From contig JABDFZ010000001.1 in assembly GCA_013286325.1 (NCBI GenBank), positions 37,429-101,428 of the forward strand: a stretch of DNA of 64,000 bases, in the 5' to 3' direction. A program made the translations under genes and the position numbers. This document shows positions 17,011 to 60,168 of the stretch, piece after piece (position 1 is the stretch's first letter; every line of letters starts with the position of its first letter). Below the pieces are notes generated by a model. The model searched no databases. It was given only the letters and a program-made list of their open reading frames with translations, and was not told the origin of the DNA. Origin of the DNA: Bacteroidota bacterium (GTDB lineage: Bacteria > Bacteroidota > Bacteroidia > Sphingobacteriales > Sphingobacteriaceae).

Positions 17011-17030
17011 ATACAAATATACTATTTTAT

Positions 17031-17070
17031 CAAAACATAAAACCCGGCTTAAACCGGGTTTTATGTTTTG
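17031..17070 (-). terminator. strong stem-loop downstream of sucB
   Basis: Perfect 17-bp arms caaaacataaaacccgg / ccgggttttatgttttg with 6-nt loop. Confidence 0.88.
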
Positions 17071-17082
17071 ATATAGGGATGT

Positions 17083-18657
17083 TTATACTCCTAATAATAA
17101 CCTTGATGGGTCTTCCAATAACTGTTTTACCCTTACCAGGAAGCTGACCGATTCGCGGCCATCAATAATACGGTGATCGTACGATAGTGCTAAATACATC
17201 ATCGGGCGAATAACCACTTGTCCGTTTACTGCAACAGGGCGCTCAATAATATTGTGCATCCCTAATATAGCAGATTGAGGAGAATTTAAGATAGGTGTCG
17301 ACATCATAGACCCAAATACACCGCCATTGGTAATAGTAAATGTACCACCGCTCATTTCCTCTAATGTAAGTTTACCATCGCGTGCTTTAACAGCAAGGGC
17401 GGCAACTGCTTTTTCAATTTCGGCAAGGCTCATGCTCTCTGCATTACGAATAACCGGCACTACCAAACCTTTAGGTGCTGATACAGCTATAGATATATCG
17501 GCAAAATTGCTGTAAACAATTTCTTCACCTTCAATGCGTGCACCTACTGCAGGCCAGTCTTTCAACGCTTCGCAAACTGCCTTGGTGAAAAACGACATAA
17601 AGCCTAAACCTACACCGTGTTTCTCTTTAAATTTATCTTTATATTTTGTACGCAGCTCCATTATTGGCGACATATCCACTTCGTTAAAAGTGGTAAGCAT
17701 GGCAGTTTCGTTTTTAACCGCAACTAATCTGCGGGCAACTGTTTTGCGTAACGACGACATTTTTTCGCGGCGGTCAGATCTTGGACCTGAAGCTACCGTT
17801 TCAGTTTTCGGAGCTGCAGCCGCTGGTTTCGGGCTTCCTACATCCTTCAATGCTTCTTTATTCACCTGCGGGTTCTCTGAAACTTTTTCGGCCAATAAGG
17901 CATCCTCTTTAGTTATCCTTCCGGCTACACCTGTTCCGCTTACACCTTTTGCGTCAACACCTTTTTCTGCCAATATTTTTGCAGCAGCAGGAGATGGAGT
18001 GCCCGATGCATAAGTTGTTGCTTTTTCAGTTGTTACCGGGGCGGATGCGGCGGCTGGGGCAGCAGCAGTTGCAGCTGGCTTTGCAGCGCCCGATCCTTCA
18101 ATAGTACAAACAACTGCACCAATAGGTAATACGTCGCCCTCTTGGGCTATAGTTTTTAATACGCCCGCCTTTTCAGCAGTTAATTCAAACGTAGCTTTAT
18201 CTGATTCAAGCTCAGCAATGGCTTCGTCCATAGCAACTGTATCGCCATCCTTTTTTATCCAACGGGATAAGGTTACTTCGGTAATCGATTCACCTACTGT
18301 TGGTACTTTAACTTCCAATGATGAAGCAGCAGTAGCAGGAGTTTCTGGCTGAGGGGCAGGAACAGCAACAGTTTCTTTACTGCTACTTTCAACTGCCGCT
18401 GGTTTGCTTTCTTCAACAGCGCCACCCTCTTCTATAATTGCAACAACAGCGCCGATAGGCAAAGTATCCCCTTCTTTTGCTTGTGTTTTTAAAACCCCGT
18501 CTGCTTCCGCAGTAAGTTCAAAAGTTGCTTTATCTGATTCTAATTCAGCAATTACTTCGTCCATTTTAACTGTGTCGCCATCCTTTTTTTTCCAGCTCGA
18601 CAGGGTTACTTCGGTAATTGATTCGCCAACCGGCGGAACTTTGATAGTTAAACTCAT
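17083..18657 (-). CDS. sucB: 2-oxoglutarate dehydrogenase E2 (dihydrolipoyl succinyltransferase) with two lipoyl domains
   Basis: Two ESDKATFEL lipoyl motifs, E3-binding domain, catalytic C-terminus [16 protein letters not shown]; start adjusted to [13 protein letters not shown]. Confidence 0.93.
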
Positions 18658-18663
18658 TTTTTC

Positions 18664-18832
18664 AATTTGAAAATTTGTTGATTTGAAAATTTGAAAATGC
18701 TGTCTGGTGATTATCTCTTCCAATCAGGGCGTCTTCAAAGTTTCAAATTAATATTTGTTGACTTTGAAAATTTGAATTTGTCGCCTCAAGATCACTAATC
18801 ATCAAATTGGCACATCATCAAATTTTCAAATT
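18664..18832. repeat. sucA-sucB intergenic spacer of repeated TTTGAAAATTTG words and their inverse
   Basis: aatttgaaaatttgttgatttgaaaatttgaaaat; gtttcaaattaatatttgttgactttgaaaatttgaatttg; catcaaattggcacatcatcaaattttcaaatt. Confidence 0.8.
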
Positions 18833-31956: not shown

Positions 31957-31989
31957 AGACTTACGGAGTTTTGAAGACTTCGTAAGTCT
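31957..31989 (-). terminator. stem-loop downstream of the MarR gene
   Basis: agacttacggagttttgaagacttcgtaagtct. Confidence 0.5.
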
Positions 31990-35188: not shown

Positions 35189-38100
35189 TTACCTCCCTAT
35201 AACAATCTTATTATTATAAACCTTTTGTCCCAACTGGATTTTTAAAACATATACTCCGGCTGGTATAGCCGATACATCTACAACTGTACTAAAATTTCCG
35301 GCAGCAATTGCCTGTGCTTTCTTGTAAACAACCTGGCCTGCCGAGTTTATAATTGAGGTAGTTAAATTAGCATTGGCTTTGGCTGCAAAAATTATATTTA
35401 AGTCGCTACTAGCGGGAACCGGGAATATATCGAGCGCTATATCTGTTTTATTACCCTCGTTAGATGTTATCACATAAACATAATTATCGGATAGTAAGCT
35501 GCAGCCACTTGCCAACGTAACTCCAACCTGGTAATTACCGCTCTGTACAGGAGAGAATGTTGCATTTGTTGCCCCGGTTATAGCCTTCCCGTTTAAATAC
35601 CACTGATTATTGGTTGCAATATTTGAGCTTAAAACAGTACCATTTTGTGTTATAGCAAGCTTGGTGACGGTTACAGGTAACCTGGATACTGAAGGGCAAC
35701 CAGCACTTTTTACCTTAACATCATACAGATAATAATAAAAACCTTTATAATAATTATCATCTCCTGCCGATGTAGCATTATTACCAGTGATACTAAAAAT
35801 ATTGCCTATTGTAAACGGATAGCCCGTTACACCTGCATTACTGCGGTAAATAGTTGCTGTATTGTCGTACACAATATTAATGGTATAGTCTCCTGCTGAA
35901 GGCAATAATAAGTTTAAGTTATAAACCGAGCCCTGGTCGGTAGGGTCATCAGGCTGGCTTCCTGGTTGGGGGTTTGAGCGGTTAGCAACAGCATTTATAG
36001 TAACCGTCGATACGATCTCACCATTTGAATCGGAAACATTAAAAGTTATTTTCCCTGAGTTACCAATATATAAACGGGCGCTTTCAATAATTACCGGGAT
36101 TTGTGTAGTTACTGTAATATACGGTGTAAACTGATCATACCCTCCACCTGTAAATGCAGTTTTTGTGGCCGGGCCAACGCTTCCTTTAAAATCGTTAAGG
36201 CCTGCATAATATGTATTATTAACAGGCGGGGGCGATACTTCAGTAAGCGAACCGTAACCTATTGGTATGGCATCGCCCTCATTCTGATACCATAGCAACT
36301 CACCATCGCCGGAGCCTGATAGCTGGTATTGTTTACTATCAAGGCAATAATAAGCGGCAAGATCTGTTGCCGATGGTGGCGAGCTGATTACAACTGTTTC
36401 GGTTACCTGATTATTGGAGCTAACAGGATCATTAGCAAGATTTGTTGTTGCCGAAATTTTATAGGTCGATCCTGCTACCGCATTAAAAGAAGTGTTAAAG
36501 GTGAAGTTTTCTTGCTCTAATGATTGTAAAGTACCGGTATAAGTTTGCTGCAATGTTGTAACCGTGTTATCGGGTGCTGTAATGGTAACGGTAACCGGTA
36601 TATTGCTTATAGCTGCGCTGCCAAAGTTTTTAATACTTACCGTTACCTGCGTAGCTGCTGAACATGAACCCGAAGCATCGGGACTAACAATGGCTGCAAT
36701 ACCTGCATCAATACTTGTTTGTAAAAATTGTACCCGGTAATCCTGAGTTTCACCTTTAGCATAAGTGCCGCAAGGGGTAATAACCGATGCATCATTTGTT
36801 TCGGCTAATACCACTCGCATTATGCTAAAATTTCCGGGTATCACTGTTGCAGGAACAGTTATGTTGGTTGTAAAAGTACCGGTAGCATTAATAATTCCTG
36901 TTGTTGCTACTAATTCGCTCGCATCAAAAGTACCATCACCATTCCAATCAATGTAAACTTTAGCGGCTTTATTAAAGTTAGCGCCGCAAGTGCCCAGTGT
37001 GATACTTAATGGATAGGTTTTACCTTGCTCAAGCTTAAATGTTAAATCGGTATGATCGGAATATGTGGTACAGCCCGCAGGCTGGGTATAGTTAAGATTT
37101 GCCAGCGTTACGTTATTAACACGCGAGTCGGCATTTGATAACGGAGCTGATGCACAATAAGCGTTGCCACCAACCCCGGTTACTATAAGCGAGTAATCCT
37201 GCATTGAAGATTGCAGGGTACCTTTGTGCGATACAGTTATGGTGTATGTTTTCCCGGTTACCGTCCCGGGTATATAAATTTGCTCAATATTATCTAAAAC
37301 GTTATCGCCTGTTGTTGCCGCTACTGATGGGTTTGCCGGGTTAAGGATCCAGGGCATAAAGGTTGTTGTGCCATCGCTGATGCGTATGTCCAGGTCGTTT
37401 ACCAGCTTAGGTGTACGGTTGTTTATTGTTCCATCCGGAGTGGCCGATCCGGCGGGGTCAGTCCACGATATAGTTGCCATTAAAGGCCCTGCGCCGGATG
37501 CTATAACATTAAAGGTTTGCTTTTGCCCTTGTTGCAATGTATTTTCTTTTATCAGGCTTTTCCCGTCATTGTCTGTTATTGTCTGTGCTGCTTTATGCAT
37601 ATCAAGCAAACCCCATCCATAAATATAATCTGGGCCCACATTGCCTGCATCAATTGCAGTATGGCACACCAATCCTTTAAGCGTTGCTGCCTTCATAAAG
37701 CTATTCCTGCTTTTGTAAGTATAATAATACTCCTGTAACAGGTATAACGATCCGGTTATATTAGGGGCAGCCATTGATGTTCCGGATAAGGTAATATAAG
37801 ATGTAGTACTGCTACTCCCTGTTGACAACACATCCACGCCATCGCCAACAATGTCTGGCTTTATCCTGCCATCATCTGTAGGGCCATAGCTGCTAAAATA
37901 AGCGATGGTTATATTCTTGCTGTTTCCGGGTCCGTTTGGTAAGGGGTTTATTGCGCCTACTGTTAATATATTCTTCGCATTTCCGGTAGTGGCAATAACA
38001 TCGTAACCGCTATTGTCGCTTATTCCGGCGGGGCGTGGCCCCTTATCAACCAGGGTTTGATCTGTTTTGCTATTATACCCGTAATAATCCTGACCAACAG

Positions 38101-38929
38101 CAGGCCCTGTATCAGCACGGCTATTACCCGCCGACTCCACTATTAAATAATAGGGTGCGCTATATGCTATCTTGTCCCAGCTTTGTGTCCGCGAGCCATA
38201 AAAGCCAAAGTTGTAATCAACAGTGTCGCCAGGTAATCCGTACCATTCCCAATGGCTGTTAAGATCATTAAAATACCACCCTGCGGCATCGCCATAGGAG
38301 TGATTGGAGAGCAGCAAGCCAGATGCGGCTGCACTCATCTTTGTTATGTCGTTATCAAAATCGTACGACTGTAGTGTAGCCGCATTAAATGCCATGCCTT
38401 TAGCTGGCGGGTAAACACCTTTTGCTATCATGGTACCGGATACATGCGTGGCATGATCAATTACTCCTGAATTTATATCGTGAATAGTAATTGTTTTTCC
38501 GGCAAACTCCTGGTGCGATGCAAGGACTGAGCCACCATCCCAAATAGCTAATTTGTTATTGAGGGCTGCACTTGATCCGGATAAATTTAAACCAAGCGAT
38601 CCGCCGGGTTGTACTGTATTTGTGCCCGTAGTTGCCGCTGCGGTAGTATTATTATCGGTTTTGAGATATATGGGAAACCCAAGACTATTTACTCCCTGCA
38701 AAGAAAGCATTCCTCCTTTTTTTGTTTTCCTGCGGATGGCCCACCCCTTGTTTTTGGCCATTGACAATGCCCTCTGATAACCACTTTGGTAGGAATTGTT
38801 CAATTTGGCAGAAAAATCGGTAAGTTCCTTTTTCTTCGCGTCGCTGACAGGAATTTGCTGACCAAAAGTTTGATCCGCTAAACACAGCAATAAAAATGGG
38901 AAGACAATTGCTGCGTAAAGTTTATTCAT
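35189..38929 (-). CDS. secreted S8 subtilisin-like serine protease with GEVED-like/CARDB-like regions and a T9SS type A sorting domain
   Basis: WDGGSVLASHQEFAG, DHATHVSGTM, SGTSMAAPNITG catalytic motifs; C-terminus DIFPVPASSDLNIIF...GVYVLKIQLGQKVYNNKIVIGR. Confidence 0.93.
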   Translation of the reverse strand: MNKLYAAIVFPFLLLCLADQTFGQQIPVSDAKKKELTDFSAKLNNSYQSGYQRALSMAKNKGWAIRRKTKKGGMLSLQGVNSLGFPIYLKTDNNTTAAATTGTNTVQPGGSLGLNLSGSSAALNNKLAIWDGGSVLASHQEFAGKTITIHDINSGVIDHATHVSGTMIAKGVYPPAKGMAFNAATLQSYDFDNDITKMSAAASGLLLSNHSYGDAAGWYFNDLNSHWEWYGLPGDTVDYNFGFYGSRTQSWDKIAYSAPYYLIVESAGNSRADTGPAVGQDYYGYNSKTDQTLVDKGPRPAGISDNSGYDVIATTGNAKNILTVGAINPLPNGPGNSKNITIAYFSSYGPTDDGRIKPDIVGDGVDVLSTGSSSTTSYITLSGTSMAAPNITGSLYLLQEYYYTYKSRNSFMKAATLKGLVCHTAIDAGNVGPDYIYGWGLLDMHKAAQTITDNDGKSLIKENTLQQGQKQTFNVIASGAGPLMATISWTDPAGSATPDGTINNRTPKLVNDLDIRISDGTTTFMPWILNPANPSVAATTGDNVLDNIEQIYIPGTVTGKTYTITVSHKGTLQSSMQDYSLIVTGVGGNAYCASAPLSNADSRVNNVTLANLNYTQPAGCTTYSDHTDLTFKLEQGKTYPLSITLGTCGANFNKAAKVYIDWNGDGTFDASELVATTGIINATGTFTTNITVPATVIPGNFSIMRVVLAETNDASVITPCGTYAKGETQDYRVQFLQTSIDAGIAAIVSPDASGSCSAATQVTVSIKNFGSAAISNIPVTVTITAPDNTVTTLQQTYTGTLQSLEQENFTFNTSFNAVAGSTYKISATTNLANDPVSSNNQVTETVVISSPPSATDLAAYYCLDSKQYQLSGSGDGELLWYQNEGDAIPIGYGSLTEVSPPPVNNTYYAGLNDFKGSVGPATKTAFTGGGYDQFTPYITVTTQIPVIIESARLYIGNSGKITFNVSDSNGEIVSTVTINAVANRSNPQPGSQPDDPTDQGSVYNLNLLLPSAGDYTINIVYDNTATIYRSNAGVTGYPFTIGNIFSITGNNATSAGDDNYYKGFYYYLYDVKVKSAGCPSVSRLPVTVTKLAITQNGTVLSSNIATNNQWYLNGKAITGATNATFSPVQSGNYQVGVTLASGCSLLSDNYVYVITSNEGNKTDIALDIFPVPASSDLNIIFAAKANANLTTSIINSAGQVVYKKAQAIAAGNFSTVVDVSAIPAGVYVLKIQLGQKVYNNKIVIGR

Positions 38930-39023
38930 GTTATATTTTTAGTAAGATACAGGCTAAATATAATGCATTCCTGTTAAAACACGTTTTTGTTTTTTATAAT
39001 GCGCTAAAAAATTTGTTTTGTGT

Positions 39024-39075
39024 GTATATAACTAAGTGAATGGGAAATATATTTCCCATTCACTTAGTTATATAC
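39024..39075. repeat. 52-bp perfect loopless palindrome
   Basis: gtatataactaagtgaatgggaaata|tatttcccattcacttagttatatac; the two 26-nt halves are exact reverse complements. Confidence 0.97.
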
Positions 39076-39415
39076 CTCCTGTTTATAGCCAAATCTACCT
39101 CGGCGCATATTTTGTTTAATCAATATTTGAAAAAACCGTTGTTCCAATATGGGAAGAGTTGTTTTTTAAGGGGAATTAACCCCTTTTTTAAAAAGCTTAT
39201 TCTGTATGGGAATAATTGCAACCAATTGATCTTCATTGCGTATAAGCCGCTCGTTGTTAATTTAAGTAACAAATAAGGAAACCTTAAGTCTTCATAATTA
39301 ATAAGTGTTAGCAATCAATGTTGGCAACTATCCTATTGTTAATGATTAACTGTTAATATGATGTTATGTTGGTTACCTAAATGTTAATTTTGAACTCTAA
39401 TTTTTTGATAAACTA

Positions 39416-42400
39416 TTGAGAACGATACTAATAAAAACATCCCTATTAGGGATTGTTTTGTGTTTTATGGTCGCAAAGGCCGGCGCACAAAGATATATGA
39501 GTGATACTTACGGGTATTCGTGTTATAATTACTTTGATAATATTAATGTAAGCTCAACGGTTGGCGGCACAACAACCAACTCAAGTACGGCTAATGTATA
39601 TGCACCGGGATTTCTCCCCGATCCGGACGTATCCGCAAATAACACATCTGTTGTAGTTTCATCAGCAGCCATAAACAATTTAACATTGTCGGCCACCGGG
39701 AGATGCTTAACTTCCAAATACCAGGCTACTCCTAAATCTGTTTATGTAAATAACATCAACGGTGCGGATGCGGCAACCTATGCACCTTTAAATAGCAATG
39801 ACTGGGAATGGTCGTTTTTGTTTAAATCGAACCTGGCAAGCGGCACTTATCCTTCATCAGCACCTCAAAATGCGGCAATTACTTCAAGCACTGCAAATTC
39901 ATGGCGTTATTGGCTGCATGCCACTACCTCTACCATAAGCAGCAGTACACAAGGTTTTTACGTTACACAAACCAGTGATGGTTACCTGCGGGTTTATGTT
40001 CAGAATGGCAGCGGCACAACAGCGCAGCTTATACAAAGCAATGCGGCATTACCAAACGGGGTTACTTATTGTATAAAGATACAGCGACTTACAGGTGGCT
40101 ACTGGAAAATGTATATAGACCCTTACACCGCATCAGTAACCCAGGCTAAAACGTTACAGACATCAAATACAAACAGCGATAATCAGACAATTTCACTTAC
40201 GTATACTAACTCCGTATTGGAAGCCGAAAATAAATCGGGAAGCGACGGCGCTTTTCAGTTTGATGAAATGCATATGTATACCCGCTATGCAAGTTTTACC
40301 GGTATAGCCAGTACAGCAAACGGTGTAACCCCCTCCCCCTTATATGCGGGCGAAGGAACGGTGATATTATATGGCGAACAAATACAAATGCGTGGCAACT
40401 ATGAGCTTGGCGGGCAAATTTATTTCGGCAAAAATGATACTGGTTACCCGGAAGGGAACCTTAATGGTACAGCCACGCTTTATAAAACCAGCAGCAGCAC
40501 TTTCAGCACATCTACAGGTACTGCTATAACAACCCTGAGCCTTAGCGGCGGCGGTATTGGCGGAACCTCGTCTGCAGCAGGTGCCTCTTTAAGCGACACT
40601 TATGTATCAGCAGGCAATACTGATGGAACATTAACAACTACAGGGTATTATTTTATTACAACTACCGTAAATGCTTCCATTGCTTCCTATAACATCACAG
40701 GCGTATCAATGGCGTTTACCGGGAATGTGCAGGTATACGATAATGCAAAAAATAACAGCCCGATTGTTAATACCAGCTCGGCCGGAACAACCACATCGAA
40801 CATTTACTTTGCAGGTGTTTATGACTGGAACGGATCTACAAGCGTAAATACGCAAACAGCCGCAAATTGGACGCCCAATGGTGTGCCAGGTGCAACAGAT
40901 TATGCGCGCATAGGTTATATTGATTATTCATCGCCATACAACCAACCAACTGTATCAACAACTTCAACTATTTATAATATAATAATAGGCCCATACCGCA
41001 ACCCTAAAATAACCATAGCCGCGGGAAAAACTTTAACAATTGCTGCCGGTTTCGCTGTTAACACTGCAACTACGGCAAGTATATCGGGCCCGGGTACGTT
41101 AATATTAACTGGCACATCTACCGTAAACGGAACAGCCAGCTTTACAATTAACCCAACTGGTGTGTTGAGCCTTGCTAATAACAGCAGCACTTTAACCGTA
41201 AATGGCAGCGCTACGTTTACCCTTGCTTCGGATACTACGGGCACAGCAACTGTAACCGCCATACCATCCGGTGGTACGGCAGCTATAAACGGAATTGTTA
41301 CTGTACAACGCTTTTTACAAGGCAGCCCTACTTACGATAACGTAAAAAAACGCTGGCTCGCACGTAGCTACAGGATACTATCATCTGCAGTGAATGAGGG
41401 AGCTGATGTTAATGGCAACTATCCTTATAGCTTAAACTATCTTGGAGCAAAAACTATTATTACCGATTGTGTTTCAACTTATTCATCAACGCCCGGCAAC
41501 CCTAGCCTATACTTGTATAGCGATAAGTATACACCGAGTAATGCAAGCTTCACAAGCGGGAACTTTATTGGCGTTACCAATATAAGCAGTACAATAGCAT
41601 CGGGTACTATATCAACAACAGACGCTACTAACAGTACCGGTAAAATTTATGTCGGAGGTGGCTTCCTGATGTATTTCAGGGGTGATAAGGTTATACATAT
41701 TACAGGCAGCCCGAGCAAAACATCTTATCCTTATGTATCGCCGGAAGGTGTGGTTTTTAGCGCCACAGGATATTTAAATCAGGGGACCTATTCGGTAAAA
41801 TCGTGGACAGGTGATGCAGGTTTAATGTTTAACACTTCAAACTATCCAAATAATAGTAGTATACAGGGCTTTAATATGGTCGGCAACCCTTATCCGAGCT
41901 CTATTGATTGGTCGTTATTCAGTAACACCGATCCATCAGCACCTATATATGGATATCATGTAGACCCAACCGTTTATATTTTTAATCCCCGCACAAACAA
42001 CTATGATACATATAATGCAGGTTCGAACCAGCATACAGGGAGCGCAACCAATATTATACCAAGCGGCCAGGGCTTTTTTGTTAGGGCCACCGACCTCTCG
42101 CCAACCCTAACCTTCCGCGAAAGCGCTAAAATCACCTCACAGGTTACCAGCTCTAACTTATTAATGGGCGTACCTGCCGGGCAAAATGTTACTTCGCAAT
42201 TTCTGAGATTAAAATTATCTGCCGATTCATTGAACGATAATGATATTGTTATCGGGTTTAAGTCTACAGCTACAACAAAGTATAACGGTTTTGAGGATTC
42301 AAAATTCCTTTCAGGCTCCGGGGCAATTGTAAGTCTATCAAGTTTTTCAACCGACAGTATCCCCGTTCAATTGTCCATAAATTTTTTGCCATTGCCTAAG

Positions 42401-43264
42401 CAAACACAACAGATAATAAGGCTGAATACGAAAACTACCCTATCAGGTACGCTTACATTGCAAAGAACCGAACTAAGTGCATTACCACCCATTTATGAGG
42501 TATGGCTGATGGACAACTATAAAAAGGATTCGCTGGATCTGCGCAATAATGCAACTTATACATTTAATGCAGATCAGGCAGATACCGCAAGCTTCGGAAA
42601 AAACCGTTTTCAGGTAATTATCAGGCAAAACCAGGCATTGGGTGTACATTTATTAGACTTTACTGCTGTAAAAGCATCCGGCGGGGCACAAATTGCCTGG
42701 AAGACTGAAAATGAGCAGAACTATACCAATTTTACTGTAGAGAGAAGTACTGACAATGGCGTAACGTTTGATGTATTAGGTGGCTCTTTGTCCAATTCAC
42801 AAGGTATTTACAGCTTCCTTGATAAAAACCCTGCCAATACAGTTGACCGGTACCGCCTGAAGATAGAAGACCTGAATGGTATTATTACCTATTCGAAAGT
42901 AATTGCATTAACTTATGGCGCTGCAGCTAATGCTATTGCAAGCAGTAACATTAATGTTTACCCTAATCCGGCAAGCGGTGTTTTAAATTTATCTATCAAA
43001 ACTAATAGCAACTCGCCCACTATTTTGTCGGGATTGCAAAATATAAACAAAAATCCTGTGTTAGGGAACCCTCAAAGTGGCCAGTCGCCATCATACGCTA
43101 TTAAAATAATAAGCATTTCGGGAACTGTTGTAAAAACTGCAAACTCATCGCAAACTGACTGGCAGGATAATGTAAGTACTCTTTTGCCTGGTACTTATAT
43201 TATACAGGTAATAAATAACAACGATAAAACTCTGGTAGGAAAAACCACCTTTGTAAAAATATAA
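39416..43264 (+). CDS. large secreted protein with T9SS type A sorting domain
   Basis: TTG start, signal peptide, C-terminus INVYPNPASGVLNLSI...LLPGTYIIQVINNNDKTLVGKTTFVKI. Confidence 0.88.
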   Translation: MRTILIKTSLLGIVLCFMVAKAGAQRYMSDTYGYSCYNYFDNINVSSTVGGTTTNSSTANVYAPGFLPDPDVSANNTSVVVSSAAINNLTLSATGRCLTSKYQATPKSVYVNNINGADAATYAPLNSNDWEWSFLFKSNLASGTYPSSAPQNAAITSSTANSWRYWLHATTSTISSSTQGFYVTQTSDGYLRVYVQNGSGTTAQLIQSNAALPNGVTYCIKIQRLTGGYWKMYIDPYTASVTQAKTLQTSNTNSDNQTISLTYTNSVLEAENKSGSDGAFQFDEMHMYTRYASFTGIASTANGVTPSPLYAGEGTVILYGEQIQMRGNYELGGQIYFGKNDTGYPEGNLNGTATLYKTSSSTFSTSTGTAITTLSLSGGGIGGTSSAAGASLSDTYVSAGNTDGTLTTTGYYFITTTVNASIASYNITGVSMAFTGNVQVYDNAKNNSPIVNTSSAGTTTSNIYFAGVYDWNGSTSVNTQTAANWTPNGVPGATDYARIGYIDYSSPYNQPTVSTTSTIYNIIIGPYRNPKITIAAGKTLTIAAGFAVNTATTASISGPGTLILTGTSTVNGTASFTINPTGVLSLANNSSTLTVNGSATFTLASDTTGTATVTAIPSGGTAAINGIVTVQRFLQGSPTYDNVKKRWLARSYRILSSAVNEGADVNGNYPYSLNYLGAKTIITDCVSTYSSTPGNPSLYLYSDKYTPSNASFTSGNFIGVTNISSTIASGTISTTDATNSTGKIYVGGGFLMYFRGDKVIHITGSPSKTSYPYVSPEGVVFSATGYLNQGTYSVKSWTGDAGLMFNTSNYPNNSSIQGFNMVGNPYPSSIDWSLFSNTDPSAPIYGYHVDPTVYIFNPRTNNYDTYNAGSNQHTGSATNIIPSGQGFFVRATDLSPTLTFRESAKITSQVTSSNLLMGVPAGQNVTSQFLRLKLSADSLNDNDIVIGFKSTATTKYNGFEDSKFLSGSGAIVSLSSFSTDSIPVQLSINFLPLPKQTQQIIRLNTKTTLSGTLTLQRTELSALPPIYEVWLMDNYKKDSLDLRNNATYTFNADQADTASFGKNRFQVIIRQNQALGVHLLDFTAVKASGGAQIAWKTENEQNYTNFTVERSTDNGVTFDVLGGSLSNSQGIYSFLDKNPANTVDRYRLKIEDLNGIITYSKVIALTYGAAANAIASSNINVYPNPASGVLNLSIKTNSNSPTILSGLQNINKNPVLGNPQSGQSPSYAIKIISISGTVVKTANSSQTDWQDNVSTLLPGTYIIQVINNNDKTLVGKTTFVKI

Positions 43265-59086: not shown

Positions 59087-59090
59087 TGTT

Positions 59091-59219
59091 TTAATTAGTG
59101 AATTGGTAATTTAGTGAATGACTAATTGTGAATTAGCGATTTAGTGATTGAATTATCGGATGATAGGATAAATATCCTAATATTCACTCAATCACTAACT
59201 CCCCCATTCACTAATTAAT
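59091..59219. repeat. intergenic spacer of TTAGTGA(A/T)T words and inverse
   Basis: ttaattagtgaattggtaatttagtgaatgactaattgtgaattagcgatttagtgattgaat ... attcactcaatcactaactcccccattcactaattaata. Confidence 0.8.
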
Positions 59220-60054: not shown

Positions 60055-60084
60055 AGCTGCTTCGATATTTAGTTTAGAAGAACC

Positions 60085-60168
60085 AAGATTCAAGAATCAA
60101 GAGCCAGAATTAAAGCAAAGTTGTTTCAGCTTCAGATCTTGATTCTTGGCTCCTGATTCTTGAATCTT
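60085..60168. repeat. intergenic inverted repeat, AAGATTCAAGAATCAAGAGCC word family
   Basis: aagattcaagaatcaagagcc (60085-60105) / ggctcctgattcttgaatctt (60148-60168), 20/21 paired. Confidence 0.88.

Follow-up and report, generated by a model that had tools for sequence, protein, structure and literature searches.

A perfect, loopless 52-bp palindrome, found once in its genome, between divergent T9SS protein genes of a soil Mucilaginibacter

Among the short palindromes between bacterial genes are the REPs, whose stems measure 6-13 bp in the GTAG family and 8-9 bp in the CGTC family and enclose a loop (PMC3733652). A different route to dyad symmetry is known from E. coli quasipalindromes, where template switching turns imperfect repeats perfect (PMC7202029), and perfect stems can arise through one template-switch event (PMC8794818). 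Here, a palindrome at positions 39024-39075 of a 64-kb window, by which the whole stretch of DNA that was analysed is meant, was compared with these systems.

The palindrome is 52 bp long and consists of two 26-bp arms (GTATATAACTAAGTGAATGGGAAATA|TATTTCCCATTCACTTAGTTATATAC) that are 100% complementary, with no spacer between them; read directly from the sequence, it belongs to neither strand, and its symmetry ends at 39024/39075 with no further extension outward. Base composition predicts about 4e-11 such palindromes in the window, and the longest loopless arm in 40 third-order Markov simulations of the window was 7-11 bp, compared with the real 26 bp. In a 2.44-Mb survey of its own genome and Mucilaginibacter relatives, no other palindrome whose loop is 4 nt or less has perfect arms as long; a contig of its own genome outside that survey carries a 55-bp palindrome (L258) in which 27-bp arms are separated by 1 nt. 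The exact, loopless 52-bp palindrome described in an earlier note on this DNA is therefore confirmed as real and beyond chance.

The host is a soil Mucilaginibacter, the genus in which the orthologs of its S8 protease are found. According to domain matches, the palindrome is flanked on one side by the minus-strand gene of a 1246-aa S8 (subtilase) protease with GEVED and Por_Secre_tail domains (35189..38929) and on the other by the plus-strand gene of a large, 1282-aa T9SS-sorted surface or secreted protein (39416..43264). A T9SS type A sorting domain is found in both proteins, barely over the cut-off in the 1282-aa one. Between the palindrome and the S8 start (38929) there are 94-95 bp, and the divergent gene begins with a TTG codon (39416) at a distance of 341 bp. 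This matches the placement given earlier (95 bp and about 340 bp, between divergent T9SS genes).

The likely core promoters of both genes fall outside the palindrome. The probable -7 box of the S8 protease gene (TATATTTA, 38955-38962, minus strand) was assigned by its resemblance to the consensus TAnnTTTG, and relatives have TATATTTAG or TACATTTG; that of the divergent gene (TAATTTTG, 39385-39392, plus strand) was assigned by a consensus match. Upstream of the S8 box, the alignment of orthologous spacers reveals a conserved S8-proximal promoter block on the minus strand (AAAACAAATTTTTTAGCGCA, 39000-39019; AAAACAAATTTTATATTGCG in relatives), which begins 4 bp from the palindrome end. Going by this conserved promoter, the S8 transcript likely starts downstream of the palindrome, which would lie ~75-130 bp upstream of the predicted transcription start. 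A box that matches the same consensus exactly, TAGATTTG, is present upstream of the palindrome on the minus strand (39090-39097) and could be a second S8 promoter. If so, a 24-26 bp hairpin would be carried in the S8 5' UTR, or the palindrome might be made as a small hairpin RNA, and a predicted RNA fold of -35.3 kcal/mol (z -10.6) is in keeping with such a role. Against it, the conserved S8 promoter is downstream of the palindrome, conservation of the 39090-39097 box was not seen in relatives, and an Rfam search returned no family at or above its gathering score, only weak matches to microRNA models far below threshold. An RNA role is thus decidedly unlikely.

S8 orthologs were found in 135 of 151 genomes of the genus, with a best identity of 83%. 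A large divergent gene lies ~450-720 bp upstream of S8 in G137, G143, G128, G073, G149, G113 and others, and in some of those relatives it resembles the T9SS protein of this locus. The spacers of the closest relatives share two blocks with the host spacer, the proximal block AAAACAAATTTTATATTGCG and a distal block TTATACGnAATGAnnATCA, whereas the sequence between them shows no conservation across relatives; the palindrome sits in this fast-changing middle. The distal block (TTATACGCAATGAAGATCAATTGGTTGC, 39218-39245, minus strand), aligned in the orthologous spacers of several species, is noncoding and occurs once in the genome. In the form TTATACGnAATGAnnATCAnTnRGTTnC it is common to several Mucilaginibacter species, and a regulatory role would be more plausible for it than for the palindrome. 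The palindrome itself is missing from all orthologous spacers examined (29 relatives and 59 loci, two overlapping sets), a few of which hold other, unrelated palindromes. The comparison of spacers proposed in the earlier note, run here in related species, therefore found the promoter blocks kept and the palindrome absent.

These conserved flanks also bear on whether the palindrome is an assembly or library fold-back artefact, as might be feared in a fragmented draft assembly that is 61% complete. Had the DNA folded back, the left flank should continue into its own reverse complement. What is seen is unique sequence on each side, the two flanks forming part of a single orthologous spacer whose gene pair and block distance are the usual ones, which makes an artefact extremely improbable. 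In the host the blocks are 226 bp apart; in five relatives (G137, G143, G128, G073 and G149) the distances, listed from shortest to longest, are 199, 199, 202, 220 and 228 bp. A clean 52-bp insertion would imply a 174-bp ancestor, shorter than in all five relatives, and is unlikely for this reason, while a 26-bp inverted duplication would imply 200 bp. Such a duplication, or a replacement in place, may fit the spacer length somewhat better, although the argument is weak since spacers vary in length and the blocks of G137 are 228 bp apart without a palindrome. In alignments to relatives with one or both arms removed, made to identify the ancestral arm, neither arm scored above shuffled arms, because the relatives are too distant.

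To establish whether the palindrome is repeated, its 26-mer was searched for genome-wide, as the earlier note had proposed. Besides the palindrome's two arms, no match within 3 mismatches was found in its own genome (~61% complete), leaving a single copy and no repeat family. In the 151 genomes of the genus, five 3-mismatch matches occur outside the own genome, no more than with the reversed-pattern control; no exact 21-mer of the palindrome is present in GTDB species genomes, and nothing similar was found in the phages and plasmids searched. Several related copies within one genome, as REP- or MITE-type elements would have, were likewise not found in this ~61% complete genome. The palindrome belongs to no repeat family found.

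By its shape, the palindrome could be a mobile-element remnant, either a minimal MITE or a pair of 26-bp terminal inverted repeats that became joined when the interior was lost, and dispersed near-loopless palindromic repeats do exist in the genus. Yet its own genome has no second copy of an arm (a lone parent element could be missed at ~61% completeness), the 151 genomes give nothing above control and GTDB species genomes no exact 21-mer, no target duplication flanks the palindrome and the spacer is of normal length. The outer flanks TGTTTTGTGT and CTCCTGTTTA form no direct repeat; a TA or TATA inside the palindrome could still be a duplication. The fused terminal inverted repeats suggested earlier accordingly find no backing in other copies, target duplication or spacer length, and a mobile origin is very improbable.

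A 10-mer of the palindrome does recur at 59203-59212, as had been noted, while the repeat family that it was thought to hint at did not hold up. With one mismatch allowed, the 10-mer has 8 matches in the window against 3.4 expected, and the copy at 59203-59212 sits inside a TAGTGA-type word-repeat spacer; it is therefore no sign of a shared family, and the match at 59203 is a coincidence. A family shared with the 59.1-kb spacer was rejected, as just this one 10-mer is in common, in low-complexity repeats. Two such word-repeat spacers occur in the window (59090-59215 and 60078-60161), with TAGTGA-type and ATTCAAGAATCAAGA-type words, the second type resembling repeats in L080 and L100.

Membership in a dispersed family of palindromes with a GAAGTTTT-n-AAAACTTC core was also rejected, the palindrome at 39024-39075 having no sequence relation to it. 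The core itself (GAAGTTTT-N0-5-AAAACTTC) has 18 copies in the genome and 0 in the reversed control. The dispersed near-loopless repeat mostly takes the form AGAYTTACGAAGTTTT-n-AAAACTTCGTAARTCT, 33 bp long; its flanks are unique, and changes in its arms are paired. Of 61 genomes of the genus, 33 carry it, in as many as 76 copies, and the remainder lack it. REP-like, it often lies 5-30 bp past a stop codon; its sites are at 31957-31989 in the window and at L244-L258 on the host's own contigs C1, C7, C11, C14-C16, C18, C19, C22, C44, C51, C54, C58 and C72. A limited literature search found no description of this repeat, and more attention to it may perhaps be due. In two of its members, L258 (C72, core 1711-1727) and L244 (C1, 32628-32674), perfect arms of 27 bp and 23 bp run into unique sequence, as though the repeat had landed in the loop of a pre-existing hairpin or its arms had been lengthened by template switching. 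In another Mucilaginibacter genome, a divergent gap holds a 40-bp perfect loopless palindrome, CTACTATCCTGTAGGATACCGGTATCCTACAGGATAGTAG (L119:1774-1813), composed of two inner palindromes.

The palindrome is not a terminator of its flanking genes, since it lies in a divergent gap and neither arm is followed by a U-tract; on this point the earlier note, which had argued from the divergent starts, was right. Counted on crude gene calls, long palindromes of the genus number 66 in 46.9 kb of convergent gaps, 65 in 138.7 kb of tandem gaps and 15 in 65.9 kb of divergent gaps, an excess in convergent and tandem gaps as expected if most of them are terminators. The window also holds a 46-bp near-perfect loopless palindrome (17028-17073), 10 bp past the end of a minus-strand 2-oxoglutarate dehydrogenase E2-like gene (17083-18723), which is likely a terminator hairpin.

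A dimeric or tetrameric regulator that acts on S8, and possibly on the divergent gene as well, could bind where the palindrome lies, upstream of the conserved promoter, and operator-like dyads are seen in some other S8 spacers (TATCAAAATGATA repeats in X4EP1, TTCCC-N5-GGGAA in OK098). An operator would be expected to be conserved together with its regulated promoter, but no ortholog examined has the palindrome even though the neighbouring blocks are conserved. Moreover, its core, GGGAAA-N0-6-TTTCCC, is at control level in its own genome (3 vs 3), and regulators usually need less than a 26-bp perfect arm. A regulator site is therefore unlikely, and the cruciform or regulator site for the gene pair proposed earlier is not borne out by orthologous spacers that keep the promoter blocks without the palindrome. 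We would give only a small chance to joint switching of the S8 protease and T9SS protein genes by a newly arisen, species-specific cruciform or regulator site. The idea that S8 spacers share an operator of the CCCAT/ATGGG or TTCCC/GGGAA type was rejected, matches being too few and the core being at control level genome-wide. The TATCAAAATGATA dyad is repeated and operator-like at L039:10196-10227 and L041:4998-5029, upstream of S8 in one species and nearby in another.

The explanation that we favour, at somewhat better than even confidence, is that template switching during replication produced the palindrome recently and in this lineage only; it probably has little function. Template switching would account for its perfection, its unique sequence, its absence in relatives and the lack of a family. 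During replication, the polymerase may have changed template where a short inverted repeat, possibly the AT-rich centre GGGAAATATATTTCCC, was present, and copied ~26 bp as the reverse complement; alternatively, an imperfect palindrome may have been 'corrected' to a perfect one. The event would have taken place in the unconstrained middle of the divergent spacer, adjoining but outside the conserved S8 promoter, and the palindrome would have been tolerated because it broke no promoter and was short enough to survive. Perfect arms that extend into unique sequence elsewhere in the genome, such as those of the 55-bp palindrome at L258, support template switching. Counting against it, Bacteria overall prefer 4-bp spacers to loopless repeats (PMC13155455), and selection could also keep a perfect 26-bp stem. 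Among the rival explanations, we rank a regulator site first, followed by an RNA hairpin, a mobile-element remnant and, last, an artefact.

The locus offers a clean case: the palindrome is very long, perfect and loopless, it occupies a bacterial promoter region, and orthologous spacers mark it as lineage-specific. It also warns that, unless comparative data are at hand, a striking sequence should not be taken to be functional. Close strains, if found, would make a template-switch origin directly visible.

In comparison with known systems, the palindrome shares with intrinsic terminators the form of a long intergenic hairpin, and most long palindromes of the genus are in terminator positions; terminators, however, follow genes and have a U-tract, whereas the palindrome lies between divergent starts without one. 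Like REPs of the GTAG and CGTC families (PMC3733652), it is short, intergenic, palindromic and bacterial, but REPs are repeated by definition and the palindrome is single copy. With the palindromic operators of dimeric regulators it has in common a dyad symmetry upstream of a promoter, but it is perfect and much longer, and orthologous promoters do not conserve it. It also resembles the template-switch mutations at E. coli quasipalindromes (PMC7202029) and the hairpins created by template switching (PMC8794818), since such a single event would yield a perfect repeat of unique sequence, with no family and no counterpart in relatives; in contrast to those cases, the palindrome is known here without its ancestral sequence, and its 26-bp loopless arms are long.
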